Below, in pieces: positions 42,449 through 63,080 of a stretch of DNA of 64,000 nt. The number at the start of each line of letters is the position of its first letter. Position 1 is the stretch's first letter. The notes under the pieces are model-generated. The model had not been told where the DNA came from and ran no database searches. It saw nothing but the letters and a program-made list of their open reading frames with translations. The DNA is taken from assembly GCA_027063305.1 (NCBI GenBank), contig JAMORY010000002.1, positions 1-64,000 on the forward strand, written 5' to 3'. Both the position numbers and the translations under genes were made by a program. Origin of the DNA: Sulfurovum sp. GTDB lineage: Bacteria; Campylobacterota; Campylobacteria; Campylobacterales; Sulfurovaceae.

Positions 42449-44863
42449 ATGCTCCGAAAAAGTCTGCTCTGGATGGTGCTTCTGTTTTCATTCCTTCATG
42501 GGGAAATTGAAAACAGCTGTCTAGAGTGCCATAAAGGTATTGAACCCATCCGTGAACAGCAGTCTAAAATGATGCAGGAGATATTCAAGGTTGCAAAGAG
42601 AGCAGGAGCCGAAGGGAATGACTGTATCGTTTGTCATGGCGGAAACCCTCATGTGCTTAATAAAGATTTGGCACATGAGGGAACGTTGCCCTACTTCAAA
42701 TCACATAAAGGTCCCAAAGCCTTCTACCCCTACCCAGGAAGCCCGTGGATCAACGAACACACCTGCGGTATGTGCCACCCCAAACAGGTCGCCGCGCAGG
42801 AGAATAACCTCATGGCGACAGAGCAGGGTAAAATTCACGGTGCGCTGTGGGGATTTGGTGCCAAGGACGGATACAACCACTCCTTTACCAACTTCGGCGG
42901 AAAGTCTCCCGCATTACATGAGCGGCTGGGTAGTGAAACCTACAAAAAATATATGCAGAAGCTTGCCAAAATAGAGCCGCAGGGGTTTTTGGAAGAGACC
43001 AAAGAACTACCTCCTGCACCCACGGCAGAAGAGGTGGAGAAAGACCCCTCGCTTTCAGTCTATACCTATCTACGGCAAGAGTGCCTACGCTGCCATACGG
43101 GCGGCAAAGGGCGCTATCGTCGTGGAGACTACCGTGGTATCGGGTGTGCTTCGTGCCATGTGCCCTACTCCAATGAGGGGTACTATGAAGGAAACGATGC
43201 ATCTATCCCCAAAGACAAACCCGGACATATGCTCGTACACAGCATCCAATCTTCCAGTAAAGTGCATGTGCAGGTACACGATGTCAACTACACGGGTATT
43301 CCGGTCGAGACCTGCACGACCTGTCATAACCGCGGAAAGCGGATCGGGGTGAGCTATCAGGGGCTGATGGAGACGGAGTACAAGGCGACATTTGATGCGC
43401 AGGGGAACGGACAGCCCAAACTCCATACCAAACGCTATTTGCACCTGACCGAAGATATTCACTACTCTAAAGGGATGCTCTGTCAGGACTGCCACACCTC
43501 CAACGATATGCACGGAGACGGATTTTTCAGAGGAGCAAACCTCGGGGCAGTGGAGATCGAGTGTCAAGATTGCCACGGCACAACAAAGCAGTACCCGTGG
43601 GAGCTGCCGCTTGGGTACTCGGATGAGTTTGATATCAAACCCAAAATGGGCAAAGCCAGAGGGACGACCAAGTCGTTGGCGGCGTATTTGAAACAGGGGG
43701 ATATCCCTCAAGATAGTGGGGACGGCTTCCTGCTCTCTGCGCGCGGTAATCCGTTGACAAAAGCTGTCAAACAAGGCAACAAGGTTGTCATGCATCTTGC
43801 TTCAGGTAAAACACTCGAACTTAAGCCGCTTAAGCTTCTTAAAGAGGAAAAGAAGATCTCCGAGGAGGGGCTCATTGCTATGGACCAGATAGCAGCCCAT
43901 ACCGACCGAATGGAGTGCTACACCTGTCATGCGACTTGGGCGCCGCAGTGTTACGGCTGTCATGTCAAGATAGACTACTCCGGCGGTAAACAGAACCCTG
44001 ACTTTTTGGCAGCCTCCAAGCACCATGTTAACGGCAAGACAGGGGATGTTGACAGCTTGAAAGATTTTCTGGTTGACGGAAAAGTGACTGAAACACGCTC
44101 CTACTTACGGTGGGAGAACCCGGCACTGAGCCAGAACGGGGAGGGGCGTATCTCTCCGACCATTCCGGGGTGTCAGGTGACGTTGACGGTTATTGGTAAA
44201 AACGGCAACGCATTGCTGCAAAACCACATTTGGAAACTCAAAGGGGTTGAGCAAGGCAGGGGTGTCAAAACCCCCAAAGAGGGTGTCAACTCCATTACGA
44301 TGAGTCCTGTGCATCCGCATACGGTGAGCAAACGTTCGCGCACCTGTGAGAGTTGCCACAATGACCCCAAAGCGATGGGGTACGGCATTGGGGAGGGCAA
44401 ATACTTCTCAGACCAGACCAAAACAACCGTTGTCGACTTGATGACCGCTTCGAAAAAAGTATTGCCAAAAAAGGTTGATGAGCAGATCCCTGCCATAGAG
44501 AACCTCAACCACGACTACTCCAGTATGCTCGATGCCAACGGTACACAGCTGCAGACGGTCGGGAATCACTGGAAACTCTCACAGGCACTGGGCAACCAGA
44601 CCCGGGACAAACTCGACCGCCGCGGTACCTGTCTGGCGTGTCACAAAGAGATGCCAAGTGAAGATCTTGCTGTTTCCCTGCTGGTACATACGGCGAAGTA
44701 TGCCGGTATCAACATTGACAACCGTATGCACAAAATACTGGTGAACAAAAGTATCTTGCTTAGCGCATGGGTGCAGGTACTTGGCGGTCTGCTTGCGGGG
44801 GCGCTCATCGTGTTCTGGTGGTTCAGACGAAAACAACAAACAAAACAAAGGAGAAAACAATGA
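42449..44863 (+). CDS. Dodecaheme membrane-anchored cytochrome c
   Basis: Signal peptide; 12 CXXCH motifs (CLECH, CIVCH, CGMCH, CLRCH, CASCH, CTTCH, CQDCH x2, CYTCH, CYGCH, CESCH, CLACH); C-terminal TM helix and basic tail. Confidence 0.9.
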   Translation: MLRKSLLWMVLLFSFLHGEIENSCLECHKGIEPIREQQSKMMQEIFKVAKRAGAEGNDCIVCHGGNPHVLNKDLAHEGTLPYFKSHKGPKAFYPYPGSPWINEHTCGMCHPKQVAAQENNLMATEQGKIHGALWGFGAKDGYNHSFTNFGGKSPALHERLGSETYKKYMQKLAKIEPQGFLEETKELPPAPTAEEVEKDPSLSVYTYLRQECLRCHTGGKGRYRRGDYRGIGCASCHVPYSNEGYYEGNDASIPKDKPGHMLVHSIQSSSKVHVQVHDVNYTGIPVETCTTCHNRGKRIGVSYQGLMETEYKATFDAQGNGQPKLHTKRYLHLTEDIHYSKGMLCQDCHTSNDMHGDGFFRGANLGAVEIECQDCHGTTKQYPWELPLGYSDEFDIKPKMGKARGTTKSLAAYLKQGDIPQDSGDGFLLSARGNPLTKAVKQGNKVVMHLASGKTLELKPLKLLKEEKKISEEGLIAMDQIAAHTDRMECYTCHATWAPQCYGCHVKIDYSGGKQNPDFLAASKHHVNGKTGDVDSLKDFLVDGKVTETRSYLRWENPALSQNGEGRISPTIPGCQVTLTVIGKNGNALLQNHIWKLKGVEQGRGVKTPKEGVNSITMSPVHPHTVSKRSRTCESCHNDPKAMGYGIGEGKYFSDQTKTTVVDLMTASKKVLPKKVDEQIPAIENLNHDYSSMLDANGTQLQTVGNHWKLSQALGNQTRDKLDRRGTCLACHKEMPSEDLAVSLLVHTAKYAGINIDNRMHKILVNKSILLSAWVQVLGGLLAGALIVFWWFRRKQQTKQRRKQ

Positions 44864-45146
44864 CCATAACCAAACGTGTCACATTTATTGCAAAAAGGGA
44901 TGTGAGGAGAAGATGAAAGAGCTGCTCAGTGTGATGGTAGTACCGAGCAAGGCGGAGAAGGGATGCATTTTCTATGAGATCTTTCAGTATGAGAACAATC
45001 CGCGAAAGTTCATGACAGTAGAGACATGGGAGAATGAAGCAGCATTGGACGGACATAAAGCTTCGGCACACTATGCGGTCTACAAATCAAGCTATGAGCC
45101 CTACAGTGAGCACAAATATACCGATGAACTGATCGTACTGGGGTAG
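44860..45146 (+). pseudogene. Antibiotic biosynthesis monooxygenase (ABM/LsrG-like) domain protein, frameshifted at A5 tract 44892-44896
   Basis: MTITKRVTFIAK in one frame, KGCEEKMKELLSVMVV...DELIVLG in the -1 frame; ATGA overlap with upstream cytochrome stop. Confidence 0.75.
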
Positions 45147-45148
45147 CG

Positions 45149-46329
45149 ATGGAGAATCTCTGGAATGAAACGGAAGCGGCATCGTGCAGCAGTAATCTGG
45201 ACCTAAGGGTCTACACCTCCAATCTGCTTGGACGCAGTGATGATCTGGTACTGCACGGCGGCGGGAACACATCGGTCAAAAGTGTGGTAGAGGGAGAGGA
45301 TATCCTCTTTGTCAAAGGGAGCGGGTGGGACCTTGTCTCCATTAAAGCCGAAGACTTCGCACCTGTGAAGCTTGAGGTGCTCAAGCAGATGGCGACCCTG
45401 GAGCATTTGAGCGATACGCAGATGGTTGCACAGCAGAAAGCGGCAATGATCGACAAAAGTGCCCCCATCCTTCTGTAGAGGCGATCTTGCATGCGATCAT
45501 CCCTTTCAAGTTCGTCGACCATACCCATGCCGATGCGGTGGTGACACTCTCGAACTCTCTTGGTGGGGAACAGCTGATCTCTGAGATTTATGATGATTTT
45601 CTCATCGTGCCCTATGTGATGCCCGGCTTTGTGCTGGCGCAGAAGATCCATGAGCTGACAAAGTCAGGGGTTGACTGGGAAAAGTGCGGTGGGATCATCT
45701 TGCATAACCACGGTATTTTTACCTTTGATGACGATGCCAAGCGCTCTTACGAGAAGATGATAGAGGCAGTCAGCCGTGCCGAGGCGTACCTCGATGCGCA
45801 TGCCCCGCTGCAGCTGGATGAAGCAATGCCCAAAGCATACCCTTTTGAAAGGCTTGGGGAAGCGGTTTCCAGAGTAAAAGGGGTTGATGTGGTCATGAAA
45901 ACAGACCAGAGTCCGCTAGCGCTGACCTATGCATCCAAGCCGGATCTTGAAACATTTGCGACACGCGGCGTGCTGACCCCTGAGCATATTATCCGTACCA
46001 AGCGGATACCGCTGGTATTTGAGGGCGAAGATATGGAAGCGGCGCTTGATACGTATGTAGATGCCTATAAAGCCTACTTCAACCGCTATGCGACCGATGA
46101 GGTGATGCTCAACCCCGCACCCAACTATGCGGTCATCAAAGATGTCGGTGTGGTGATGTTCGGGAAAAATGAAAAAGAGGCATCGGTGATGGCGGACATT
46201 GTCTCCCATACGATGCGTGCGGTACTCAGAGCCGATGCACTTGGCGGTTACCGAAGCATCGGCGAGGCGGAGAGCTTTGCGATGGAGTACTGGGAACTTG
46301 AACAGGCAAAACTGAAAAAGCAGGAGTAG
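45149..46329 (+). pseudogene. Class II aldolase/adducin family protein, frameshifted at C5 tract 45462-45466
   Basis: ...AAMIDKSAP then (HPS)VEAILHAIIPFKFVDHTHADAVVTLSN in a different frame; adding one C restores a ~393-aa ORF. Confidence 0.85.
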
Positions 46330-47867
46330 CAGATGCAGTATCTTATGGCGATCGATGCGGGTACGGGCAGTGTCCGTGCGGTGATCTTCGATGCAAACGG
46401 AAAGCAGATTGCAGTAGAGGACAGCGTGAATGGGTGCATTTTGAAGAGGAGGGGGTTGCCAACTCCATGACCTTTGATGTGGCACACAACTGGGAACTGA
46501 CCGCAGCGGTGATTCGCGAAGCGATCCACATGCCGGTATCAGCGGTGATGAGATCGCTGCGGTGAGTGCGACCAGTATGCGTGAGGGGATCGTTGTCTAT
46601 GACGAGAACGGCAAGGCGCTCTGGGGTGTTGCCAATGTCGATGCCAGAGCGGATGTCCAGGTGCACTATCTCAAAGATGCATTTGATGCGATGGAGGCGG
46701 AAGATTATGCCATGAGCGGACAGACCTTTGCTCTGGGTGCACTGCCCAGACTGATGTGGCTGAAGACCCACCGTCCCGGGATCTATGAAAAGATGCATAG
46801 GGTCTCGATGATCGGTGACTGGGTGCTTGCCTCACTGTGCGGCACAGTTGCGACCGATCCGAGCAATGCGGGGACCACAGGGATATTCTCTTTGAAAGAG
46901 AGACAATGGGCACCGCAGATGGCAACACGTATGGGGATCAAGGACACTATCTTCCCGCCTGTACTGGAACCCGGATGCGTGATGGGAACAGTCTCCCCTG
47001 AAACGGCAGCACAAACAGGGCTCTCAACACAGACAAAGGTGGTGATGGGCGGTGGGGATGTCCAGCTTGGTGCTGCCGGTCTGGGTGTGGTCAAAGAGGG
47101 GTAGGTCGCCATACTGGGCGGTTCGTTCTGGCAGCAGGTGGTCAATATTCAAAACAGTGTTGTACCGCCTGAAGATATGAGCGTACGGGTCAACCCGCAT
47201 GTCATCGACGGGCTCTCTCAGGCAGAGGGGATCACCTTCTTCTCCGGGCTCATCATGCGCTGGTTCAGAGATACGTTCTGTGATATGGAGAAGCACGAAG
47301 CGGCAGAGCAAGGAGTGGATGTCTATGCGATACTCGAAGCCAAAGCTGCCAAAGTGCCGGCTGGATCACACGGTATCCTCCCCATCTTCTCCGACAGTAT
47401 GAAGTACGGCAAGTGGTACCATGCCGCCCCCTCGTTCATCAACCTCTCCATCGACCCTGAAGTGTGCAACAAAGCCTCCATGTTCCGAAGTCTGCAGGAG
47501 AATGCCTGTATCGTCTCTGCGATCAATCTGGAGAAGGTCAAAGCCTTTACCAGGCTTGATTTTGAAGAGGTCGTCTTTGCCGGAGGTGCAAGCAAGGGGC
47601 CGCTCTGGTGCCAGATCCTTGCCGATGTGACCGGATGCCGCATCAAAGTGCCTGAAGTCAAAGAGGCGACCGCACTTGGCGCTGCAATGTGCGCAGCAGT
47701 AGGTGCGGGATTGTATGAAAGCATCGAAACGGCAAGCGATGCATGGGTGGCATGGGAGCATACCTGCCTTCCAAATGGTGTAAATACGGCAACCTATGAA
47801 ACGGTGAAAAAAACGGTAGCAGAAGGTGTATGAAAAACAGCTGGCACTGGTGGATGACGGCTGGTTG

Positions 47868-49319
47868 CCCAAATCCCGAAATAGAAATTCAAACTTCACA
47901 AAATAATCCAAGAACAGTCAATACAACAGTGAGTTTTTGCCTGTATTTCATAGATCAATGGAAAGTTGTATCAAGATACTGTATAAAAGGACAGTTTTGA
48001 AGTATTTCTCTATTTTTAAGACAGAACTATCCTGTTGGAAGTGGTAATGAATAAAAGGATTCAGTTAAGATACTTGTGGGTGGCTGTCATTCCAAACTGA
48101 TCTCATAGTTCTTCTGCCGTATGGTATTGAGTATCTCTACAAACTGATCATTGATCTTGAGGATGGTTTGTCTTGCATGGGTGATCACCTTTCCTGCAAT
48201 GTGATAGAGTTTGTAGCGAATGGTCTGTATGGTATGTTTCTGCCAGCTGCTGTGCAGTATCTGTCTAAAGAGGATGAAGAGATTGTATGCCAGTGTTCCG
48301 ATATGAAAGTAGAGTGCATTGGCTTTGAAGTGTGAGGTAGGCAGATACTTCAGATTGAAACCGTTTTTGAGCTCTTTGATACGGTTTTCACTGGTGTCTC
48401 CCCGTTGTCTGTAGAAGTGCACAAGCTCTTCAGGTGTCATGGTATTGTCATTGGGTAATTTCACCTATTGAAGCAAGAACCCTTTGATCCAAATGCGCAC
48501 CGATCACATAGGTGATATTGTTCTTATCACAGTAGTTGAACAACGCTGCTTGATACGATGCTGCATCGGCTCTAAGATAATGTATCTTCCGGTCTTTAGG
48601 CAGTTGTGATTCACACTGTTGCACGAAAGCAAGGTTATGGTCTGCAGGTGCTATATTACCCGCTCTGAACGCCTGATGTATCACATAGCCACCGTTGATA
48701 TGACCAAGTATAGGTGTGAAGCCGGGAAACATCTTATAGGTTGTCCGTGCTATGGACTTATGGCTCTCTATGACAGTTACATCGATATCCACTACCAGAG
48801 GCTCTTCGATCTTTGAGAGATAGCGTTTAAGCAGAATACGGTTGATCTTCTCCATGGCAGTAATTTTATCTTCTGTATTACGTTTAAGCCACTTACCTAT
48901 ACTGTCTGCTACAGGTATTCTCTTTATCCCAAGCAGTGTACACAATGCTTTATCTGAAGCAATCATTCGTATATCTTCGAGGTATCTGCCGCCGCTATGG
49001 AGCATCAACAGCAAAGGCTGGATAAATGTGTAGGGATCGTAACTGTGATTACTTTGGGAAGCAGGAAGATATCTGTTGCATAATCGATCTAAACGTATCG
49101 CTTTAAGAAATTCTCCGAAAACAACTTCCCCCGCTCTAGGTGTCAGTCTCTCATCGGTGTTTTCTACAGTAAAGTTTAAAAGTCTCTGTGTCATACTTCA
49201 CTCCTCGGCAGGAGCCTCACCCGTTGGGTGAAAGTGACAGGTGGGCTTCTGTTGGCTTCTTTTCTCGTATTTTACGCCATCTCCGCTTATCTTATTATTT
49301 TTCTATTTCGATTCTTGGG
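47868..49319 (-). mobile_element. IS1380-family-like insertion sequence, internally deleted (about 1.45 kb)
   Basis: Imperfect 20-bp terminal inverted repeats CCCAAATCCCGAAATAGAAA (47868-47887) / CCCAAGAATCGAAATAGAAA (complement of 49300-49319), 16/20 matching; 5-bp direct repeat GGTTG at 47863-47867 and 49320-49324. Confidence 0.85.
48087..49194 (-). pseudogene. IS1380-type transposase split in two frames with an apparent internal deletion
   Basis: N-part 49194..48448 (GGRYLEDIRMIASD, VVDIDVTVIESHKSIARTTYKMFPGFTPILGHI, YLRADAASYQ) ends at GEITQ*; C-part 48464..48087 starts at KLPNDNTMTPEELVHFYRQRGDTSENRIKELKNGF. Confidence 0.85.
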
Positions 49320-49371
49320 GGTTGAGGCGATGTGGAAAGCACCGGGAGTTTAGGTATAATATATAAATTAG

Positions 49372-50379
<1,008 letters not shown>

Positions 50380-51510
50380 ATGCAGTTTATCCCTTATGGC
50401 AGGCAAACAGTCGATGACAATGATGTTGCATCTGTAGTAGAGGTGCTTCAGTCAGACTATTTGACTACAGGATCAAAGGTTGAAGCGTTTGAAACGGCAA
50501 TTGCCGCTTATTGTGGAGCAGACTACTGTGTGGCTGTTTCAAATGGAACGGCTGCTTTGCATTTAGCCTCTTTGGTACTATTGGAAAAAGGTGAAAAGGT
50601 GCTTACCACTCCCAACTCCTTTCTTGCTACATCAAATGCCATTTTGTATGCAGGAGCAATTCCTGTTTTTGTTGATATCACTGAAAATGGAAATATTGAT
50701 CTTGATCTGTGTGAAGAGGCTTTAAAAAATGATCCTGACATCAAGGCTATTTACGGTGTTGCATTTAGCGGACATATGCTTGATCAGGAGAAGTTAAAGC
50801 ATCTTAAAGAGACTTATGGTGTCACTATAGTGGAAGATTGTGCCCATGCCATTGGCGCAGAGGAGAATGCCATTAAAGCAGCTTCCTGTACCAACAGCGA
50901 TATATCTATCCTCTCTTTTCACCCTGTTAAACATATGACTACCGGTGAAGGTGGTGCGGTTACAACCAACTCCAAAACATTTTATGAAAAACTGTTGATC
51001 TTGAGAAATCATGGGATGGTGAAGAGCTCTGAAATGAAGCCCTGGGAGTATGAGATGAGAGAGCTGGGGTTTAACTATCGTATAACAGATATACAGTGTG
51101 CCCTTGGGATTTCTCAGCTTCGGAAACTTGATGGGTTCATTCAAAAGCGTCAGCAGATCGCTGAACGTTATGATAAAGCATTTAAAGGCAGTATGGTAAA
51201 ACCTCTTTATCTGTTTGACGAAAAATCCTCTTATCATCTCTATGTAGTGCAAGTGGACTTTGAACAACTGACTATTTCCAAAGAAGAACTTTTTGTTAAA
51301 ATGAGAGAGAAAAAAATCGGACTTCAGCTTCACTATATGCCAATCAACAAGCAACCCTACTATCGAAAACTTGGTTACGGAAATGAGTTCACGCCTGTAA
51401 TGGATAGGTATTACAAGAGATGTTTTTCTCTACCGATCTATCCCTTACTGAGTAATGAGGAACAAAACTATGTGATTGAATCTCTCTTTGAGGTGTTAGA
51501 TGGAAAATAA
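50380..51510 (+). CDS. pseC: UDP-4-amino-4,6-dideoxy-N-acetyl-beta-L-altrosamine transaminase, PseC
   Basis: DegT/AHBA aminotransferase: YGRQTVDDNDVASVVEVLQSDYLTTG, SFHPVKHMTTGEGGAVTTN; follows pseB. Confidence 0.94.
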   Translation: MQFIPYGRQTVDDNDVASVVEVLQSDYLTTGSKVEAFETAIAAYCGADYCVAVSNGTAALHLASLVLLEKGEKVLTTPNSFLATSNAILYAGAIPVFVDITENGNIDLDLCEEALKNDPDIKAIYGVAFSGHMLDQEKLKHLKETYGVTIVEDCAHAIGAEENAIKAASCTNSDISILSFHPVKHMTTGEGGAVTTNSKTFYEKLLILRNHGMVKSSEMKPWEYEMRELGFNYRITDIQCALGISQLRKLDGFIQKRQQIAERYDKAFKGSMVKPLYLFDEKSSYHLYVVQVDFEQLTISKEELFVKMREKKIGLQLHYMPINKQPYYRKLGYGNEFTPVMDRYYKRCFSLPIYPLLSNEEQNYVIESLFEVLDGK

Positions 51511-52219
51511 AGCAGTATGTATTATTCCTGCAAGAGGAGGCAGCAAAAGAATTCCGCGGAAAAATATTAAAGATTTTTTGGGGAAGCCTCTGATCGCATA
51601 TTCGATTGAAACCGCACTTGCTTCCAATCTCTTTGACCAGGTGATTGTAAGTACGGATGATGAGGAGATTGTAGCAGTAGCTAAAAAATATGGAGCGGAG
51701 GTTCCTTTTATGCGTCCTTCCGAGTTGGCAGATGATTTTACAGGAACAGGCAAAGTTGTTGCGCATGCTATAGAGTATTTGAAACAAAGAGGTAAAAAAT
51801 ACGACTATGTATGTACAATTTATGCGACAGCCCCTTTTTTACAGGAAAAATATTTGATAAAGGGGTTCAATGCTTTGGTTGATACCGATGCTCATATGGC
51901 ATTTTCAGTAACAAGTATGCCTTTCCCTATTCAGCGAACATTTAAAATAACTGAGGAAGGAAGATGCCAAATGTTTTTTCCTGAACATTTTCAAAGTAGA
52001 AGCCAAGATCTTGATGAAGCATATCAGGATGCGGGACAGTTTTATTGGGAAAGTTTACATCGTGAAGCAACAGATATTCCTTTTGGTCAAGACAGCATAC
52101 CTGTTATTCTACCTCGATACCTGGTACAGGATATTGATACTTTGGAAGATTGGGAAAGAGCAGAGGTAATGTATCGTGTTTTGTTGGAAATGAAAAAAGA
52201 AGAGAAGTTATATGTTTAA
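51500..52219 (+). CDS. pseF: Pseudaminic acid cytidylyltransferase, PseF
   Basis: CIIPARGGSKRIPRKNIKDFLGKPLIAYSIE; context. Confidence 0.93.
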   Translation: MENKAVCIIPARGGSKRIPRKNIKDFLGKPLIAYSIETALASNLFDQVIVSTDDEEIVAVAKKYGAEVPFMRPSELADDFTGTGKVVAHAIEYLKQRGKKYDYVCTIYATAPFLQEKYLIKGFNALVDTDAHMAFSVTSMPFPIQRTFKITEEGRCQMFFPEHFQSRSQDLDEAYQDAGQFYWESLHREATDIPFGQDSIPVILPRYLVQDIDTLEDWERAEVMYRVLLEMKKEEKLYV

Positions 52220-53255
52220 TAAAAGATTTAAAATTGATAATGTTGAAATAGGGGAAGGGTGTAAACCTTATATTATTGCAGAAATGTCTGCGAACCATGG
52301 AAATAAAATAGAAAATGCTATAGAAATTATTCAAACAGCCAAAGCTTGTGGTGCAGATGCAGTAAAGATCCAAACGTATACGGCGGATACTTTAACCTTG
52401 AACTGTCAAATAGACGCTTTTAAAGCTAAAGGAGCATGGGAGGGAGTTTATTTGTATGATTTGTACAAAGATGCAGCTATGCCATGGGAATGGATTCCAA
52501 AGCTCCAAAAAGTTGCAGCTGATGTAGGAATTACACTTTTTTCATCTCCTTTTGATTTTTCATCTGTTGCATTTTTGGAAAAACTTGATATGCCTGCATA
52601 TAAAATAGCGTCTCCTGAGATTATTGATCTTCCCTTAGTTAGGCGTATTGCCCAAACAGGAAAGCCTATTATATTGTCGACAGGAAATGCAACAATCGGT
52701 CAGATCAATGAAGCTTGTGCTGTATTGATAGAAGAAGGTGTGAAAGATGTTGCCATTCTTAAATGTACCAGTGAGTATCCTGCTTCTCCTAAAGGGATTA
52801 ATTTAAGAACAATTGCAAATTTGAAAGAGGTATTTCAGTGTCCTGTAGGTTTATCCGATCATACATTAGGATCAGCAGTGCCTATAGGTGCCATTGCATT
52901 AGGGGCAAACATCATTGAAAAACATTTTATTGTTGATAGAACAGAGACAACAGCAGATAGTTTTTTCTCTGCTACACCGGAAGAGTTAAAGATGATTGTA
53001 GATGGAGGGAAAATGGTCTATGACGCGGTTGGGGATATATCCTATCCTGTGAAAGCACTTCCTCCACAACGCTCTTTGATTGCAGTTGATGATATTGATA
53101 TTGGAGAATTACTGATAGAAAATAAGAACTTCAAGAGTTTAAGACCCGGTGGTGGTATTGAGCCAAAATATGTAAATCTTGTTGAAAATAGAAAAGCTTC
53201 TCAATTGATATTAAAGGGTACTCTCTTGACATGGGATATGATTGGTGGGAAGTGA
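52212..53255 (+). CDS. pseI: Pseudaminic acid synthase, PseI
   Basis: NeuB family with SAF domain: PYIIAEMSANHGNKIENA, LGANIIEKHFIVDRTETTADSFFSATPEEL. Confidence 0.95.
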   Translation: MFNKRFKIDNVEIGEGCKPYIIAEMSANHGNKIENAIEIIQTAKACGADAVKIQTYTADTLTLNCQIDAFKAKGAWEGVYLYDLYKDAAMPWEWIPKLQKVAADVGITLFSSPFDFSSVAFLEKLDMPAYKIASPEIIDLPLVRRIAQTGKPIILSTGNATIGQINEACAVLIEEGVKDVAILKCTSEYPASPKGINLRTIANLKEVFQCPVGLSDHTLGSAVPIGAIALGANIIEKHFIVDRTETTADSFFSATPEELKMIVDGGKMVYDAVGDISYPVKALPPQRSLIAVDDIDIGELLIENKNFKSLRPGGGIEPKYVNLVENRKASQLILKGTLLTWDMIGGK

Positions 53256-53261
53256 TAATTT

Positions 53262-54194
53262 ATGGATAGGTTAAAAGTTGCATTTTTTACAGAAGCAGGT
53301 TCAAAAAGAGGTATGGGACATTTGGTTCGTTGTCATACGATTAGCCAGGAGTTTAAAAAACATCAACACGCTATCTTTTTTAATCTTGTAAGTGACATTA
53401 GATATGACAGCAGATTTAAAAACATTAACTATATAACGTGGGAAAACTTTACGCTGACAGAAACATACGATATTGTGTTTATTGACAGTTATGAAGCAGA
53501 GCAAAAGGTATATGAAGCAATTTCTAAACATTGTAAAGTGGCAGTTTATATAGATGACTATGGAAGGTTGATATATCCTAATGGGATAGTAGTCAATTTC
53601 GCACCGGAAGCAAAGGCATACTTTAAAACGTGCAATAATAAGTATTTGTTGGGACTAAAGTATTTGCCACTCAGAAAAAAGCTAGTACAAACCAACAAGC
53701 AGAGTGGCAACGCCATTTTTATAATGCTGGGGGGAAGTGATACAGGTGGGTTAACATTGTCTGTACTAAAGGTGCTAAAAAATAATACATTAAAAAAGTA
53801 TGTAGTTATTAATAAAAAGAGTGACCTTTTGGAAGCAAAAAAATATAAAAACTGCTCTATTCTTTACAAGCCAACAGATAATATATTATTTGATGCCATG
53901 AGTAAAAGTTCTGTTGCTATTACCACAGCAAGTATGAGTGTATATGAACTTGCATATTTGAAAATACCAACGATTATATTGGCAGTGGCAGAAAATCAAT
54001 ATAAAGGTGTAAATCAGTTTTTGAAGTTTAATTTAGCACAGCAAAATATAAATATTCTTAATAAAAATTGGAAACAAAAATTACGATATAGTTTTGAGAA
54101 AGTTTGTCAAATTAAACGAACAAGAGCCGTAGTTGGGAAAAATGGAAATAATTGTATCTATCAACAAGTGATGAGAGTATTTAATGAAAAGTAA
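53262..54194 (+). CDS. pseG: PseG-like UDP-sugar hydrolase / GT-B fold protein
   Basis: FFTEAGSKRGMGHLVRCHTISQEF resembles the PseG N-terminus; IFIMLGGSDTGGLTLSVLK; position in pse cluster. Confidence 0.75.
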   Translation: MDRLKVAFFTEAGSKRGMGHLVRCHTISQEFKKHQHAIFFNLVSDIRYDSRFKNINYITWENFTLTETYDIVFIDSYEAEQKVYEAISKHCKVAVYIDDYGRLIYPNGIVVNFAPEAKAYFKTCNNKYLLGLKYLPLRKKLVQTNKQSGNAIFIMLGGSDTGGLTLSVLKVLKNNTLKKYVVINKKSDLLEAKKYKNCSILYKPTDNILFDAMSKSSVAITTASMSVYELAYLKIPTIILAVAENQYKGVNQFLKFNLAQQNINILNKNWKQKLRYSFEKVCQIKRTRAVVGKNGNNCIYQQVMRVFNEK

Positions 54195-55329
54195 AAAAGT
54201 ATTAATCCTAGGTGGAAGTCATAGAGATATCCCTCTAATAAAGGCTGCACAGGCATTGGGGTATTTTGTAATTACATTAGGTAGTAAGGCGTACTATAAA
54301 GGGCACGCTTATGCGAATAAATATTTTTTGGTTAACTTTAATAACCTAGAAAAAGTTCGGAAAGTTATTAAAGATGAAAAAATTAACTATTTGATTCCAG
54401 GTTCAGGAGAAGAATCATATTTAAATACCGTTTTATTGGCAAAAGAATTTAATATAGGAAATTTTGACAAGATAGAAGTAGCAAGATTGATTCATAATAA
54501 ATGGAAATTTAAAGATTTTTGCTTACAACATGGTATTTCTACACCAAAAGGTATATATTATCAAAACAACCAAGATTTATCTGTATTGACTTTTCCTGTT
54601 GTTATAAAACCCACAAGTCTATCAGGTGGACGAGGTGTGGATATCGTGTATAATGAAAATGAACTCCGAAAATCACTCAAAAAGACCACTGAGATTACGA
54701 ATGAAATATTTCTTGAAGAGTATATTCATGGACAATTAATTGCTTATAGTATATTTTTGCAAGATCAAAAAATAAAATACGCATTCAGTGGGGTAGATGA
54801 AACATATCTTAATCCTTATCTTATAACAACAGCATATCCATTAACACTAGATAATGAAGTAGAAGAAATATTAAGTAGAGATATTGAAAAAATTGCAAAA
54901 ATACTAAGTTTGGTAGATGGTATGTTTCATTTACAGGTTATTATTAAAGAGAGTATTCCTTATATAATAGATGTAACAAGAAGAATCCCTGGAGACTTTT
55001 ACCCCTTTCTTATAGAAGAAGCCAATGATGTAGAATATAGCAAGGCAGTAGTCAAAGCGTATTTAGGAGACAATATAGCAGAAGAGTTGGTAAAGAAAGA
55101 AGATAACTTTGTTATCAGATATGTAGTTATGCCATCAAAAAATGGAATCTATAAGGGAATAAAAATAGATCCAGCTATTGAAAATAATATTATTTACAGG
55201 TTTGACTTATTGGATAAAGGAGATATAATAAGTGACTATATAAATACACAAGTAGCGGTAATTTTGATAAAAAATTATCAAGAAACAGATAGTTTGGACC
55301 AAGTAGTTGTTGTTGAAATTGATACATAA
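54184..55329 (+). CDS. ATP-grasp domain ligase
   Basis: FPVVIKPTSLSGGRGVDIVYNENEL, FLEEYIHGQLIAYSIFL, YIIDVTRRIPGDFYPF. Confidence 0.85.
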   Translation: MKSKKVLILGGSHRDIPLIKAAQALGYFVITLGSKAYYKGHAYANKYFLVNFNNLEKVRKVIKDEKINYLIPGSGEESYLNTVLLAKEFNIGNFDKIEVARLIHNKWKFKDFCLQHGISTPKGIYYQNNQDLSVLTFPVVIKPTSLSGGRGVDIVYNENELRKSLKKTTEITNEIFLEEYIHGQLIAYSIFLQDQKIKYAFSGVDETYLNPYLITTAYPLTLDNEVEEILSRDIEKIAKILSLVDGMFHLQVIIKESIPYIIDVTRRIPGDFYPFLIEEANDVEYSKAVVKAYLGDNIAEELVKKEDNFVIRYVVMPSKNGIYKGIKIDPAIENNIIYRFDLLDKGDIISDYINTQVAVILIKNYQETDSLDQVVVVEIDT

Positions 55330-55361
55330 CTTTATTATCGAGAAGAAAAAAGTGAGAATAA

Positions 55362-56429
55362 ATGTATAAATTAGCATTTTTGGGTGGTGGAACAGAATCT
55401 ATTGCGGGGTATGTACACCTAATAGCTTCACAAATGGATAGAAAGTTTGAAGTAGTAGGTGGTATTTTCAGTAGAGAGAGTCAAAAGTCGCAAATGGCAG
55501 CACAAGAGTATAAAGTTAAACATTTTGATTCTATTGCAGAAATGTGTGAGCAAGTAGATATTGTTGTTGTGCTGACACCTACCCCTGAACATTATAGAAA
55601 TATAACAGAGTTATTAAGGTTTGATGTTGGTATTATCGTAGATAAGCCAATTGTGAGTGAACTTAGTGAAACATTAATAGATGAAAATAAATTTATAGTA
55701 GTAACGCATAATTATAGTGGATATCCATTAGTGAGAGAACTTAAAGAACTAATCAGGCATGCACACTTAGGTGAAATAAAAAAAATTAAAATTAATATGC
55801 CTCAAGAGAGTTTTTTTAAACCAATGAAGCCAGGATACCCTCAACAGTGGCGGATACAGGATAAAAGTATTCCAACAATTTCTCTTGATTTAGGTGTGCA
55901 TGTTTTTCACTTATTGGAGTTTTTATATCCGGATGATATTGTAGAAGTCTTTGCGGAGTGTAGCAGCTTTTCACGTTTTGATGTGATTGATGATTATGAT
56001 ATTTTAGTTCGATCAAAAAATATCAAAGCAGTACTTAGTTTTAGTAAAATATCTTTAGGAAATAGGAATGAATTAAGTATTGAAGTTTATGGAAACCATG
56101 CTGGTGCAAAATGGGAGCATTCAAATCCGGAAGAGTTGATTATTGCATATACAGATGGAAAAAGAGAAGTATTTTCACGAGGGTATGCTCCATATGAAGC
56201 ATATAAAAAACGTTATAACCGAATGGCTCCTGGACATATGGCAGGCTTTATAGAAGCATTTGCAAATCTTTATGTTGATATTGAAGAAGCCTTCACCCAC
56301 TTTAAAAGTACAGGAGTGTTTCAGTCAAATGCGTTTGTCTATGATGCAGCACATTCCTATAAAAGTTTAAAGTTTTTAGATCTGGCAAAAGAAAGTACAC
56401 AAAAGGGAAAATGGATTGAGTGGAAGTAG
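55362..56429 (+). CDS. Gfo/Idh/MocA family oxidoreductase
   Basis: LAFLGGGTESIAGYVHLIA, VVLTPTPEHY, IIVDKPIVSEL, LDLGVHVFHLLEFL. Confidence 0.88.
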   Translation: MYKLAFLGGGTESIAGYVHLIASQMDRKFEVVGGIFSRESQKSQMAAQEYKVKHFDSIAEMCEQVDIVVVLTPTPEHYRNITELLRFDVGIIVDKPIVSELSETLIDENKFIVVTHNYSGYPLVRELKELIRHAHLGEIKKIKINMPQESFFKPMKPGYPQQWRIQDKSIPTISLDLGVHVFHLLEFLYPDDIVEVFAECSSFSRFDVIDDYDILVRSKNIKAVLSFSKISLGNRNELSIEVYGNHAGAKWEHSNPEELIIAYTDGKREVFSRGYAPYEAYKKRYNRMAPGHMAGFIEAFANLYVDIEEAFTHFKSTGVFQSNAFVYDAAHSYKSLKFLDLAKESTQKGKWIEWK

Positions 56430-56506
56430 TGTATAATTAGCAGAATTATCTAAAATATATAGTTGGGAAAACAGTTGAGTAATATAAATAAAATAAGGTT
56501 TAGAGA

Positions 56507-58819
56507 GTGAAACGTATAAAAATTCTAGACTGTACATTACGAGATGGCGGATATGTGAATAATTGGCAGTTTTCCAATATGCAAATCAGCAGGATCTCTT
56601 CTGCTTTGGAAGCGGCAGGTATTGATATCGTCGAATATGGATACCTTAATCAGAAAAAAGGAAATGCTGACAATACTACACTTTTTGATAAGATACAAAG
56701 CATTAAGGAGAAATGTAACGCGGTAGCCAAAAATGGAAAAGTAGTCATGATCAATTATGGAGACTATCCTATTGATCTTCTTCCCCATCAAAAAGAAAGT
56801 GTTATTGACGGAATCCGGTTGGCATTTCACAAAAAAGATCTACAATCGGCATTGGAGATGGCTACAGAGATCATACAGCGGGGATATAAACTTTACCTTC
56901 AACCCATGGTAACCAAAACGTATACACAAAAAGAGTTCCGAGAGATGCTGGATGCAGTAAATCATCTGATGCCGTATGCTTTTTATATTGTAGACAGTTT
57001 TGGTTCAATGACACTGACAGAGTTCAGAACCTACCTGTTATCTGCGGATGAAGTATTGTATCCGAAAATTGTTCTGGGATATCATGCTCATAATAATATG
57101 CAGCTGGCATTTTCAAATACGATCGATATGTGTCATGCCAAACTGCAAAGAGATATCATTATTGATGCCAGTATCTATGGTATGGGAAGAGGAGCGGGAA
57201 ATCTCAATACAGAATTGATCGCTGATTATTTGAATACCACGTTTCATGCATCATACAATACGTTGCCGCTACTTGAAATAATAGATCTGTATCTCTCCTC
57301 ATATATGAAACAGAACCCATGGGGATTTTCACCGGCACAGTATCTCTCCGCACGCTTTGACTGTCACCCGAACTATGCAACCTACCTGATAGGAAAAAAT
57401 ACCAATCATATTGTGAATATCAGGAATATTTTGGCACGTTTACCTCAAGAGGAAAAAGTATCTTTTAATGAAACACTTGCAGAAAAACTTTATATTGATG
57501 CATTGGTGGAAGAACGAACGCCAATCAAAAAAGTACTGCATCTGGATATGGCGAAGCATATCCTGTTGATCGCTTCAGGAAAAAGTGTAAGATCTTACCA
57601 GGCAATACTGGAGGAAAAGTCGAAAAGAAAAGAGTATCTTCTGATTGCCCTGAATCATATTCCGGAGATGACATGTGATTACTACTTCTTCTCAAACCAG
57701 AAAAGGTTCAATGAGTTTTATATGTCTGTACCATCTGATAAATTGGTGGTGAGTAATAATATAGATACGGATGGAAGGGAGTGTTATGTTTTTCCTTTTC
57801 AACAGTTTGCTTTTGTTGAAAAACAGTTTATCCCCAATATCGCAGTTGTGGTATTGCAATATCTTATTTCCCAAGGATTCGCTGAAGTTGAAGTGGCAGG
57901 ATTGGACGGATATGACCTGAAAAGCCTGGAAAACTATAGTTATAACGAGAGTACTGTTATTACGGATGTCAAAGCGATGAAAGAAGAGAATACACGTTTG
58001 GCATTTGCAATAGAGAAATTGAGCAGGAATATCCATATTCTATTTGTAACACCGTCTCAATTTCAAAAAAGTATACCGCTTAAAATTATTGGAGTGATCC
58101 CGGCTCGATACAGGTCGAGCCGTTTTGAGGGGAAACCACTATGCATGATAGCCGGAGTCCCAATGATCAAAAGAACCTATATGCAGGCAAAACAGTCTCA
58201 GTTGCTGGATAGGTTGGTTGTAGCAACAGATGATCCAAAAATAGAAGAGTACTGCAAAAAAGAACATATACCGGTGATAATGACAAGCAGTAACTGCCTG
58301 ACCGGAACCGATAGGATCGCAGAGGTAGCACAACGGGAGTCATTTGATTTATACGTCAATATCCAAGGGGATGAACCGGTGATCGATCCTGGAACCATTG
58401 ACAGTATTGTGGAAGAGTATAGGCGATATGGAAATAGATATATTGCTTATAATCTCTATAAAGTTATTGATGATATGCAGGAAGTAAAGAGTAATACGAT
58501 CATTAAAACAGTGGTGAATGAAAAGGATGAATTGATCTATATGTCCAGACATCCAATTCCATTTTCCAAAATGCAGGAAACACCTGCATATAAAAAACAG
58601 GTATGTGTGTATGGTTTTACCAAAAGAGCCCTCTCTTTGTTTGCATCACGGGACAAAACATTGAATGAGAAGTATGAGGATATTGAAATCTTGCGTTTTG
58701 TGGATATGGGCTATAAAGTAAAGATGAGAGAGACTAATGCCGATTCTATAGCGGTAGATATTCCGGATGATGTTCAAAAGGTTGAGCGCTATCTTCAGCA
58801 GAAAGGTTTGGAGTCGTGA
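56507..58819 (+). CDS. Fusion protein: HMGL-like aldolase domain + middle domain + KdsB-like CMP-ulosonate cytidylyltransferase
   Basis: N: ILDCTLRDGGYVNNWQF, GYHAHNNMQLAFSNTI, IYGMGRGAGNLNTELI; C (from about aa 526): IGVIPARYRSSRFEGKPLCMIAGVPMIKRTYMQ, NIQGDEPVIDP, YGFTKRAL. Confidence 0.88.
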   Translation: MKRIKILDCTLRDGGYVNNWQFSNMQISRISSALEAAGIDIVEYGYLNQKKGNADNTTLFDKIQSIKEKCNAVAKNGKVVMINYGDYPIDLLPHQKESVIDGIRLAFHKKDLQSALEMATEIIQRGYKLYLQPMVTKTYTQKEFREMLDAVNHLMPYAFYIVDSFGSMTLTEFRTYLLSADEVLYPKIVLGYHAHNNMQLAFSNTIDMCHAKLQRDIIIDASIYGMGRGAGNLNTELIADYLNTTFHASYNTLPLLEIIDLYLSSYMKQNPWGFSPAQYLSARFDCHPNYATYLIGKNTNHIVNIRNILARLPQEEKVSFNETLAEKLYIDALVEERTPIKKVLHLDMAKHILLIASGKSVRSYQAILEEKSKRKEYLLIALNHIPEMTCDYYFFSNQKRFNEFYMSVPSDKLVVSNNIDTDGRECYVFPFQQFAFVEKQFIPNIAVVVLQYLISQGFAEVEVAGLDGYDLKSLENYSYNESTVITDVKAMKEENTRLAFAIEKLSRNIHILFVTPSQFQKSIPLKIIGVIPARYRSSRFEGKPLCMIAGVPMIKRTYMQAKQSQLLDRLVVATDDPKIEEYCKKEHIPVIMTSSNCLTGTDRIAEVAQRESFDLYVNIQGDEPVIDPGTIDSIVEEYRRYGNRYIAYNLYKVIDDMQEVKSNTIIKTVVNEKDELIYMSRHPIPFSKMQETPAYKKQVCVYGFTKRALSLFASRDKTLNEKYEDIEILRFVDMGYKVKMRETNADSIAVDIPDDVQKVERYLQQKGLES

Positions 58820-59436
58820 TACGTGTTGTTCTTTGGGATTTTGATGGAGTTATTATAGACAGTATGGCAGTAAGAGATCAGGGGTTTCGCCAGATTTTTA
58901 ATTGCTACCCAACGGGTATGGTGGAAGACCTGATACGGTATCACCGACAAAATGCCGGTCTTTCAAGGTTTCACAAGATCAGATATTTTTATACACATAT
59001 TCTTGGTAAGGAGATTACTGATGAAAAGGTATATGACTATGCAGAGCAGTTTTCTCAAACCATGAGAAAGATCCTGATCAATCATCAATATTTAATAGAT
59101 GAGACCATAGCATATATTGAGAAAAACCATACATACTACCAGTTTCATATTGTCTCCGGTTCTGAAGAGAAAGAACTTAATTATCTTTGTCAGGAATTGG
59201 GAATTGATCAATATTTTAAAACAATAGAAGGGTCTCCTATGCCCAAGAAACAACTTGTTGAAAATATTTTAAAAGTATATGGATATGATCGTTCGGAGTC
59301 AATATTAATTGGGGATAGCATAAATGACTATGAAGCAGCGGTAGAGAATGGTATTTCATTTTATGGCTATAACAACCCTGAACTTAAAGTAGTAGCCGAA
59401 AGATATATCGATACGTTTCGGTCATGGGAACTGTAA
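58816..59436 (+). CDS. HAD-superfamily phosphatase
   Basis: VVLWDFDGVIIDSMAVRDQGF, IVSGSEEKEL, ILIGDSINDYEAAVENGI. Confidence 0.87.
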   Translation: MIRVVLWDFDGVIIDSMAVRDQGFRQIFNCYPTGMVEDLIRYHRQNAGLSRFHKIRYFYTHILGKEITDEKVYDYAEQFSQTMRKILINHQYLIDETIAYIEKNHTYYQFHIVSGSEEKELNYLCQELGIDQYFKTIEGSPMPKKQLVENILKVYGYDRSESILIGDSINDYEAAVENGISFYGYNNPELKVVAERYIDTFRSWEL

Positions 59437-60687
59437 ATGGCAGGTTTACTTTCGCCAAGAATACTCAATTTGGGACTAAGAACAGTATCGATGGCAGGCA
59501 GATTTGTCCTGATCCTTTCAATTGCAAAACTGCTTTCAGCAGAAGAGTTGGGGCTGTTTGGACTATTGAGCACAACGATCGGTTTTTTTGTTTTGCTTTT
59601 TGGATTTGATTTCTATGGATATGCCAACAGAGAGATGCTGGCGGCTGGACATGAAAACCTTTTTAATATACTGATAAATCAGTTATATGCCTATATCCCG
59701 CTCTATATGGTTTTTATGCCGTTTGCCATAGGTGTTTTTTGGAAAGAAGTGCTTCCCTGGAGTTATGCAGGATGGTTTTTGACCCTTGTGTTTATTGAAC
59801 ATCTTTCAACAGAGTTTAACAGGGCTTTGAACATGATGCAGCATCCTCTTGCTGCAACGGTAGTACTGTTTTTGAGAAGTGCCTCCTGGGTACTTTTTGT
59901 GCTGCCGTTAATGTATTTTGAAGCACAATGGAGACATTTGGATATATTGCTTGGCGGATGGCTGTTTGGAGGGGTATTCTCTATACTTTTTGCTATTTGG
60001 TTTCTGTCAAAGCATATGATGGTGAAAAAAAACTTCAAGCTTGATACCACATGGATCCTTCGTGGTTATAAGGTAGGTATGATTTTTTTTCTGGGTACAC
60101 TCAGCCTGCAGGCAATTACGCTGCTTGACAAGTTTTGGCTAAAATACCTTTCTGGTGAAGCAATGGTAGGGGTTTATACATTTTACTGGACACTGGTGTT
60201 GGGGATGACAGCATTTATTCATGCAGGAATGATCGTATTTCTTTCTCCCAAAATTGTTAAAGCATTCCAGGAAAAACAGTTTGATGATTTTAATGCGCTG
60301 TTGTCACAGTTTCTGAAGGAGTTGGCAGTTGCAAGTGTGTTTATGGTGGTTGTTCTTTTTAGTATAATGCCTATTGTGGTAGGGTGGGTAGGAAAAGAGA
60401 TCTATACAGAACATTATCACATATTGTATCTGTTGGGGGTAACAGGAGTATTTATCGTATTGACAAATCATCCTCATACATTTCTATATGCCGCACGGAA
60501 AGACAAATATATGCTTCTTGCCAATATCTCTGCACTGTTGATATTCATATCAGGTATGTTTGTAATGAAACAGATGGAGGGGTATACGGCCATTGAACAG
60601 GTGACACTGGTGATGATGGGAACATACGGCTGGATGCTGGGTATTAAGTCGCTGGGGTATTTATATTATAGAAAAGAGTATTTATGA
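59437..60687 (+). CDS. Polysaccharide/O-antigen flippase (Wzx/MATE-like)
   Basis: Multi-TM protein; SAEELGLFGLLSTTIGFFVLLFGFDFYGYANREM. Confidence 0.85.
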   Translation: MAGLLSPRILNLGLRTVSMAGRFVLILSIAKLLSAEELGLFGLLSTTIGFFVLLFGFDFYGYANREMLAAGHENLFNILINQLYAYIPLYMVFMPFAIGVFWKEVLPWSYAGWFLTLVFIEHLSTEFNRALNMMQHPLAATVVLFLRSASWVLFVLPLMYFEAQWRHLDILLGGWLFGGVFSILFAIWFLSKHMMVKKNFKLDTTWILRGYKVGMIFFLGTLSLQAITLLDKFWLKYLSGEAMVGVYTFYWTLVLGMTAFIHAGMIVFLSPKIVKAFQEKQFDDFNALLSQFLKELAVASVFMVVVLFSIMPIVVGWVGKEIYTEHYHILYLLGVTGVFIVLTNHPHTFLYAARKDKYMLLANISALLIFISGMFVMKQMEGYTAIEQVTLVMMGTYGWMLGIKSLGYLYYRKEYL

Positions 60688-61919
60688 CCGGGAAAAAAAA
60701 TATTTTAGTTTATATTAATGATTCTTTGGGGGAACTGGACTGGGTCGCTCCATATATGCAATCGGAGGAAGCACGGGATTTTTGTTTCTATATATATTTG
60801 AATGGTCCTGGAAGTACCTATGATGAAAAAATAAAGATCCTTCAGCGCTATGGTTTGGGGAGTGCTGATAACATACACTGTGTGAACCGTCGTACAAGAC
60901 TGGAACCGTTCCTTTTTCAGATAGATATGTTTCTAAACAGGGTGCTTGGGCGGATTAAACTGGTTTCTTTCCATCTGTTTGAAATGTGTCGGAGTACTAT
61001 AGATGGGGTAAGATGGCTGCTGTCCCGACTTCCGTTGGTAAAAAGCAGTGTAGCATTTGATGTGATTTTCAGGGATTATAATCTCAAAGAGAGTTTTGCC
61101 ATGAATTGCTTTATCAGGCATAGCCCTCAGGCAAAGATCGTGATCTATCCCCATGCAGTTGGTCTGCAAAGAAAACATGAAATGTGCCCCCGTGAACCGG
61201 CTAAGCAGGTACAGGCAGACCTGTGGCTGGAAAATTCGGACTATTCAGATATTATGAAGTATGACCCATACTATCAAAAGATATTTTTTGCTTCCGGAGT
61301 ACCGGGATTCGATATAAACTATAAACGCCCGGCTCTTTTTGATGTCGCATCAAAAAAGGCGGTCATTATAACACGGGACTGCAGTATGACTTTTGGTTTT
61401 ACCTATGAAATGGCTATGAAAGCTTTTGACGAACTTTTGGAAAAACTTGGGGAACAGGGGTATCAAGCCTACATCAAGCATCATCCGAGAGATAGGGAGC
61501 TGAAGCGATGGAGAAAGATCCAGCAGAAGTATCAACACTGTTATGAACTTGAAGAGAGTTTGAATACGCTGACGATGGAACATGCTGTATGTTTTACACT
61601 CTTTTCAACAGCACCGCTTTTTTTGCTTTCCCGTGGTGTCCCGGTATTGGAGTTTTCCCCCTATAGGCAGTATGATGCATACCAGCAGCGTTTTCCGATG
61701 CATTATAAAAATGAAAATGGTGAGATGACACATGACCTTCTGTCTTTAAAGCTTTTTGATCGCATTGATGTATCTACAGATGATCTCTCTTCTTGTCTGG
61801 AAGCATCTTCTCTCAAGGATCTTGCTTTACGGCAGTATAAGGTATGTCAAACTATATTTCCTCCCGGAGCAAACCAAAAAATCACAATGAAACTTCAAGA
61901 GATAACAGATGGCCGGTAA
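60684..61919 (+). CDS. Putative surface-glycan glycosyltransferase (HP-motif, GT-B-like)
   Basis: IVIYPHAVGLQRKHE, AYIKHHPRDREL, FTLFSTAPLFLLSRGVPVLEF; glycan locus context. Confidence 0.6.
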   Translation: MTGKKNILVYINDSLGELDWVAPYMQSEEARDFCFYIYLNGPGSTYDEKIKILQRYGLGSADNIHCVNRRTRLEPFLFQIDMFLNRVLGRIKLVSFHLFEMCRSTIDGVRWLLSRLPLVKSSVAFDVIFRDYNLKESFAMNCFIRHSPQAKIVIYPHAVGLQRKHEMCPREPAKQVQADLWLENSDYSDIMKYDPYYQKIFFASGVPGFDINYKRPALFDVASKKAVIITRDCSMTFGFTYEMAMKAFDELLEKLGEQGYQAYIKHHPRDRELKRWRKIQQKYQHCYELEESLNTLTMEHAVCFTLFSTAPLFLLSRGVPVLEFSPYRQYDAYQQRFPMHYKNENGEMTHDLLSLKLFDRIDVSTDDLSSCLEASSLKDLALRQYKVCQTIFPPGANQKITMKLQEITDGR

Positions 61920-63078
61920 ACTATCCTTTGATGCATTGGTTGCTTTGGAAAAAAAATATGCTTTATGGGAGTATAGGCTGTTTGACTACCCGTTATGGAT
62001 CCATTGTCGGGAACCCTTGCTGGAAAAGGGAATTATGGCGGATAGAAAAATGACATACCCTGCTGTTTTGTCAATGTTAAAAAGTTTTTTTCAGACAGTC
62101 AGGTTTTTATTTTCCCAAAATCAATATGATATGGTCTACTTTTTAATGGAAAGAGCTGAAATATTAGAGATATATAAGCAGGAGAATTCGAAAAGAAAAA
62201 TACTTTTTTTAAATCGTGAACAAGAGCGTGTGTATGAAGAAAAAGATTATATTAGCAGTGACTTTTTTAATCTGCTTCGTTTTATAAGCCGCAAGACTGC
62301 TTATCTGATCTACCGAAAAAAATATAGATTTGTCATGCAACAACTGGATCGTATAGGATATGGGGATATGCTGGACAGTTACATACGAACTGCAATGGGA
62401 GATGCTTTTTTTTTAAAAATACTTTCATTCCTGTTGCGCAAAGGTACAAAAAAATTTTATTCAGGGTGTGTGATCCCCATTGGAGAGAAGTTTGTCAACC
62501 GGTTAAACTCCTACGAGGTACAACATGGCGTTATCTATCCTGAGCACATAGGGTATGCTGAAATACCTGAAGTACGAAATACGCTGGTTCTCTATTCAGA
62601 AAGATATCGAAATATTTTACAGCAATCCGGCTATAGAGGCAAGCTGCTTGTACAAGATTTTAAAAAATCATTTTTTGAAAGAGAATCAAGCAGACACTTC
62701 CCGATTGTAATCTATACACAGCCTTTACGGCAGATGCAAGAGGGGATCAATCAGTTTCTGAAAAAATATCAGCCTAAAGATGTCTATATCCAGAAGCATC
62801 CTAAGGATTATTTTGATTATGATATAGCGTCTCGGTTTTTGGTTACGGCAACGACACCTCATGAAGTCTCCTGTCCGATTGTATATACCAGTTCTATTGT
62901 AGAGAACTTTGCTTTATATGACCGAAAGTGTTATATATATGATGTGGCACATGCAGAGTTTGATCTTATGGCATTTCTAAAGATCTATACGGAGGGTTCA
63001 AAAGCAGAGCTTATTGTAAGAAAGAGCCTGGATGAGATATATGATGAAATAAAAAAGGAGATACTATTTTCAAAATAG
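61909..63078 (+). CDS. Putative polysialyltransferase-like glycosyltransferase (HP-motif)
   Basis: VQHGVIYPEHIGY, DVYIQKHPKDYFDY, CPIVYTSSIVENFALY. Confidence 0.6.
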   Translation: MAGKLSFDALVALEKKYALWEYRLFDYPLWIHCREPLLEKGIMADRKMTYPAVLSMLKSFFQTVRFLFSQNQYDMVYFLMERAEILEIYKQENSKRKILFLNREQERVYEEKDYISSDFFNLLRFISRKTAYLIYRKKYRFVMQQLDRIGYGDMLDSYIRTAMGDAFFLKILSFLLRKGTKKFYSGCVIPIGEKFVNRLNSYEVQHGVIYPEHIGYAEIPEVRNTLVLYSERYRNILQQSGYRGKLLVQDFKKSFFERESSRHFPIVIYTQPLRQMQEGINQFLKKYQPKDVYIQKHPKDYFDYDIASRFLVTATTPHEVSCPIVYTSSIVENFALYDRKCYIYDVAHAEFDLMAFLKIYTEGSKAELIVRKSLDEIYDEIKKEILFSK

Positions 63079-63080
63079 CC

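Follow-up and report, generated by a model that had tools for sequence, protein, structure and literature searches.

Decay of an LsrK-family kinase operon in a Sulfurovum genome and its candidate role in DPD salvage among Campylobacterota

The stretch of DNA analysed here (the window, 64,000 nucleotides) forms part of contig 2 of the genome of a Sulfurovum sp. of deep-sea type, 2.03 Mb in size with a completeness of 99.96%. It was found to carry the remains of a three-gene operon coding for an ABM-domain protein, a class II aldolase and a kinase of the autoinducer-2 (AI-2) kinase family, LsrK. We consider it probable that this dead operon is of a type established in Campylobacterota, that it serves in the salvage of DPD, the AI-2 precursor, in relatives and that it has decayed in the window genome. 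The family membership, the lesions, the gene order, the distribution and the gene neighbours were all read directly from the genomes.

Lesions of the kinase gene and its operon

The main part of the lsrK-family kinase pseudogene was located at 46333–47867 on the forward strand by profile matches and by tblastn with intact homologues, with the ATG at 46333 as its start codon. Alignment of intact homologues to the DNA revealed three frame changes (near 46416–46422, 46526–46532 and 47808–47812), as well as a nonsense codon (TAG, 47102–47104) within an otherwise open piece. The 3′ end of the gene, reading EAMWKAPGV*, lies on the same strand beyond an insertion sequence (IS), at 49324–49353, and retains the xMWKAPG segment. 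Intact Sulfurovum kinases terminate in ...GLTESMWKAPGV or ...GLTQSMWKAPGI, with ESMWKAPGV, QSMWKAPGI and similar endings in intact relatives, and the last 8 residues of the Sulfurovum proteins align to 49324–49347 with 87.5% identity (tblastn), in agreement with the preliminary description, which had recognised the LsrK C-terminus here. The two pieces are confirmed as one LsrK-family gene interrupted by an IS. By coordinates, the tail is still out of frame with the preceding piece once the IS and one copy of its target duplication are discounted, and with the three frame changes, the TAG codon and the IS there is no intact kinase reading frame in the window genome. When 31 related kinases were compared, 7 of 203 otherwise invariant sites were found to be changed in the window kinase. 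Intact copies have a median of 1 such change, although one intact distant outlier likewise has 7, and the substitutions hint at a recent relaxation of constraint.

The IS occupies 47868–49319 on the reverse strand, within the last kinase codons as had been proposed, and was assigned to the IS1380 family. Like other members of this family it possesses transposase domains (NF033539), ends that match as inverted repeats (CCCAAATCCCGAAATAG / CCCAAGAATCGAAATAG) and a 5-bp target-site duplication, GGTTG, at 47863–47867 on the left and 49320–49324 on the right; it differs in that its transposase is split and internally deleted. The two transposase ORFs of 248 and 125 aa match NF033539 at 5.6e-51 and 1.7e-35, each remaining below the cut-off of 180 bits because the gene is split. 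Homologous copies occur on contigs 11 and 24 of the window genome. Compared with the copy on contig 11, the window element is without approximately 0.2 kb of the transposase region and is defective for this reason. The contig 11 copy (G000:C11:65568–67227) is larger and its transposase is also split; the IS1380 family in this genome looks decayed.

The ABM-domain (LsrG-like) gene (44860–45146, forward strand) is frameshifted near its start. Using an intact 95-aa homologue in tblastn, residues 1–20 were aligned to 44860–44919 and residues 12–95 to 44892–45143 in another frame, which places the change of frame within the first 20 residues. Its product matches Pfam ABM at 1.3e-13 and scores 24 bits against the LsrG model (NF007791), for which the cut-off is 135 bits and the intact homologue reaches 28 bits. 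The class II aldolase gene (45149–46329, forward strand; PRK08324-type, Pfam Aldolase_II) changes frame near 45463–45466, at about residue 106 of 390, its two frames aligning to an intact homologue with 66% identity. Since the ABM and aldolase genes are frameshifted in addition to the kinase, the whole three-gene operon is dead. The earlier account of a kinase split by an IS therefore stands as regards the interruption, but the insertion as the only cause of inactivation is ruled out by the additional lesions in the kinase and the operon.

In total, six frame changes and one stop were counted in about 3 kb of the operon, with the indels known from one assembly. The damage is concentrated in the operon, given that the flanking genes are open and the remainder of the window is taken up by long open frames. 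The window genome was also searched for a functional second copy, and none was found of either the kinase or the aldolase. The pseudogene in itself is ordinary gene decay. Scans of the window with Rfam and for tRNA genes were empty. Upstream of the operon lies a gene for a multihaem c-type cytochrome distantly like ExtM (42449–44863), and several Sulfurovum genomes carry a homologue of about 78–80% identity, likewise 5′ of the operon. A surface-sugar gene cluster, beginning with PseB/PseC-like genes, is situated directly 3′ of the dead operon (49387–63875), and a polysaccharide cluster is also present 3′ of lsrK in the related genome G058.

Family assignment and distribution of the kinase

The AI-2 kinase model (NCBIfam NF008187) matches the pieces of the window kinase at 4.8e-12, 1.9e-78 and 7.6e-117. 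The strongest of the other FGGY models for the two long pieces were XylB (3.8e-29, against 1.9e-78) and ribulokinase (4.9e-18, against 7.6e-117), and all of them are weaker by tens of orders. A profile scan of the genome gave 683.8 bits for the main piece when read through, above the equivalog cut-off of 528 bits, and intact kinases of relatives scored 855–888 bits. The kinase of one intact relative aligns with E. coli LsrK (PDB 5YA0) over residues 3–520 with 624 bits, the next solved structure being glycerol kinase at 111 bits. In BLASTP comparisons the G058 kinase shares 53% identity with LsrK of E. coli, 56% with that of Klebsiella and 47–53% with those of alphaproteobacteria, Deinococcus and Lacticaseibacillus. 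These family scores rule out another FGGY kinase (xylulo-, fuculo- or glycero-) and uphold the original assignment to LsrK, as a best match to a non-LsrK kinase was not seen.

The preliminary description had regarded LsrK as atypical of Campylobacterota and the window gene as acquired and then destroyed, and neither view is borne out. AI-2 kinase matches were obtained in 27 of the 78 genomes of the genus, 20 of them above the family cut-off and mostly representing intact genes of ~520 aa, and the best 80 of about 480 confirmed LsrK places in public genomes are all, or nearly all, in Campylobacterota. Intact lsrK genes are found in many Sulfurovum, Sulfurimonas, Sulfurospirillum and Arcobacter genomes and form one clade. 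A supported branch in a tree of 90 kinases separates all Campylobacterota proteins from the enterobacterial, alphaproteobacterial, Deinococcus and Lacticaseibacillus proteins; a second tree with more genera gave the same split. The window kinase nests within Sulfurovum LsrK, beside L070, with strong support. An intact copy at the same locus is present in G058, where topA, dcd, surA, the multihaem cytochrome gene, ABM, aldolase and lsrK are all intact and follow one another as in the window, and this argues for the loss of an old operon rather than a failed recent acquisition. LsrK is thus patchy but established in free-living Campylobacterota, and the window shows the loss of an established operon.

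Among 160 genomes sampled from the class (at least 95% complete), LsrK above the cut-off was detected in 11 and luxS in 130. All 11 LsrK genomes carry luxS, and most luxS-bearing relatives are without LsrK. A tie between LsrK and luxS based on this co-occurrence is weak alone, because luxS is so widespread in the class anyway. Other broken lsrK copies were noted in the genus at L030 (G071), L036 (G072) and L034 (G019); an intact lsrK occurs on the same contig as the broken copy in G071, and G019 gave no luxS match.

Gene neighbourhoods and comparison with known Lsr systems

Of 80 Campylobacterota loci, 49 have both an ABM and an aldolase gene near lsrK, usually in the order ABM–aldolase–lsrK on the same strand. 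In 13 loci metK follows lsrK by 16–90 nt on the same strand, and mtnK and mtnA are located near lsrK in 7 and 6 loci, respectively, with each of these three neighbourhoods requiring at least five changes on the kinase tree. In one genome, G210, a single block (L138:6847–10549) holds luxS, the aldolase and ABM genes and a divergent lsrK, so that AI-2 synthase and AI-2 kinase are directly linked. This block adjoins oxoacid:ferredoxin oxidoreductase-like genes; the luxS gene of the window genome is intact (G000:C3:67427–67876; L144:4419–4928) and adjoins similar 2-oxoacid:ferredoxin oxidoreductase-like genes. At three loci (L066, L069 and L106) mtnK and mtnA lie 3′ of lsrK in an arrangement resembling methylthioribose/5-deoxyribose salvage, and in some loci a second class II aldolase gene, its product 47–51% identical, is found beside mtnK/mtnA. 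A small cupin gene occurs directly or closely 3′ of lsrK in distant phyla (L076, L082, L083, L094, L113 and L140, and also Salmonella L127 and Deinococcus L120), and its product is possibly an unrecognised AI-2 processing protein.

Searches for the remaining Lsr components were conducted with E. coli proteins as queries. The receptor/importer protein LsrB gave no match in the window genome, nor in any of 10 further genomes with LsrK; only three weak matches (20–24% identity) occur in the genus, compared with 43–80% for true LsrB recovered in control loci. For the thiolase LsrF there was no match in the window genome and no convincing one among the 78 genomes of the genus, 13 of which gave weak matches of 25–30% identity over about half the protein, while the control match in L123 reached 51%. 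The regulator LsrR had no match beside lsrK in the 80 loci and matched at 31–45% in control loci. Control by HPr, as in E. coli, is ruled out as a common feature because the HPr domain is absent from 10 other LsrK-bearing Campylobacterota tested. The domain was found only inside a reading frame of ~600 aa in the three Sulfurovum genomes tested; one such occurrence, in a frame of ~640 aa, was noted at G000:C15:6024–6254.

The enteric route begins with the phosphorylation of DPD at C5 by LsrK; LsrG then isomerises phospho-DPD, after which an acetyl group is passed to CoA by LsrF with the release of DHAP. The lsr operon of E. coli and Salmonella (lsrACDB-FG, lsrRK; PMC2728841) shares the kinase family with the operon described here. 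The Campylobacterota operon differs in being without LsrB, without a convincing LsrF (in the genus) and without LsrR beside the gene, in having an ABM protein that resembles LsrG only distantly, and in having a class II aldolase in LsrF's place. The lsr operons of alphaproteobacteria (Sinorhizobium, Paracoccus and Alloyangia) share LsrK, the same type of aldolase and an ABM gene. In these regions lsrACDB ends in a class II aldolase gene and the ABM gene comes after lsrRK, and lsrF was found in none of the four examined. The Sulfurovum aldolase is 35–41% identical, end to end, to these aldolases, and the ABM proteins are only 21–29% alike. The alphaproteobacterial operons encode an importer, LsrACDB, together with an LsrR-like regulator of the sugar-binding kind, whereas LsrB is missing from the Campylobacterota operon. 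There is no luxS in S. meliloti (PMC2561040), whereas the hosts of the Campylobacterota operon possess it. The salvage of methylthioribose/5-deoxyribose (MtnK–MtnA–aldolase) likewise employs a kinase and a class II aldolase on a SAM by-product, and its genes are neighbours of lsrK in several loci, but MtnK does not belong to the FGGY kinases, and an aldolase gene and an ABM gene are part of the LsrK operon itself.

An earlier survey reported luxS but no LsrB in epsilonproteobacteria (PMC2561040), and no paper on LsrK in Sulfurovum, Sulfurimonas or Arcobacter came up in our literature searches. This type of operon, a variant of the Lsr processing module, is not described for Campylobacterota in the literature searched.

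Proposed function and alternative explanations

In relatives with an intact operon, LuxS would make DPD in the cytoplasm and LsrK would phosphorylate it, presumably at C5. The ABM protein may isomerise phospho-DPD as LsrG does, a step proposed by analogy given the low similarity of the ABM proteins and their position far under the LsrG cut-off. A metal-dependent class II aldolase, replacing LsrF, may then split the product to yield a triose phosphate, both step and products being predicted. The substrate and the order of these chemical steps are the parts of the model that we infer. The route would serve the activated-methyl cycle as an internal branch for salvage or disposal that operates without the Lsr importer. 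As there is no LsrB, the cell's own LuxS would be the natural source of DPD, and the neighbouring metK, mtnK, mtnA and luxS genes favour DPD as the substrate over an unrelated sugar. Counted against this model are the ABM scores far below the LsrG cut-off, the presence in the aldolase family of enzymes acting on other sugar phosphates, the related aldolase beside mtnK/mtnA in some loci and the absence of LsrK from most luxS-bearing relatives.

It is conceivable, though we think it unlikely, that the operon has a different five-carbon or deoxy sugar as its substrate, such as one derived from methylthioribose or 5-deoxyribose, and that the LsrK name is an inherited annotation. The rhamnulose-type enzymes in the aldolase family, the mtnK and mtnA genes beside some copies with their related aldolase, and the lack of an LsrB importer protein would all fit such a role. 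The kinase, however, shares 53% identity with E. coli LsrK along its length and stands well apart from all other FGGY kinases, the same type of aldolase and an ABM gene are also found inside true lsr operons with LsrB, and the operon adjoins metK and, once, luxS.

The state of the window operon itself could also be read differently. Were the frameshifts artefacts of sequencing or assembly, with the IS insertion alone being real, as might be suspected from the indel errors in those relatives that are metagenome assemblies, it would be difficult to account for so many lesions within about 3 kb when the window has long open frames elsewhere, for the changes at invariant sites (a hint tempered by the intact outlier), or for an IS with a clean duplication that is itself decayed; we judge this very unlikely. 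Harder still to credit is the recent acquisition of the kinase from another phylum followed by its destruction. Its patchy presence in the genus would be expected under such a history, but the strongly supported position of the window copy inside Sulfurovum LsrK and the locus shared with G058 led us to reject it.

Under the favoured reading, of an established salvage operon lost from this genome, decay would have involved several small indels, one nonsense mutation and the insertion of the IS1380 element in the last kinase codons. With luxS intact and the operon decayed, the cell should still make DPD but lack this route for it, and in this lineage DPD is presumably exported or left to decay.

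The broader proposal is that free-living Campylobacterota use an importer-less ABM/aldolase/LsrK operon, with the aldolase in place of LsrF, to degrade their own LuxS-made DPD as a form of SAM-cycle salvage, and here we find the case for and against evenly balanced. If true, LsrK would serve metabolism or signal restraint in these bacteria and not signal uptake, and lineages that have lost the operon, such as that of the window, would become net exporters of AI-2. On the question of whether the LuxS products of Campylobacterota are signal or waste, the LsrK operon offers a testable metabolic fate for DPD, of relevance to the chemolithotrophs of vents and sediments, and strains in which the operon is intact, broken or absent provide a natural comparison of AI-2 release.
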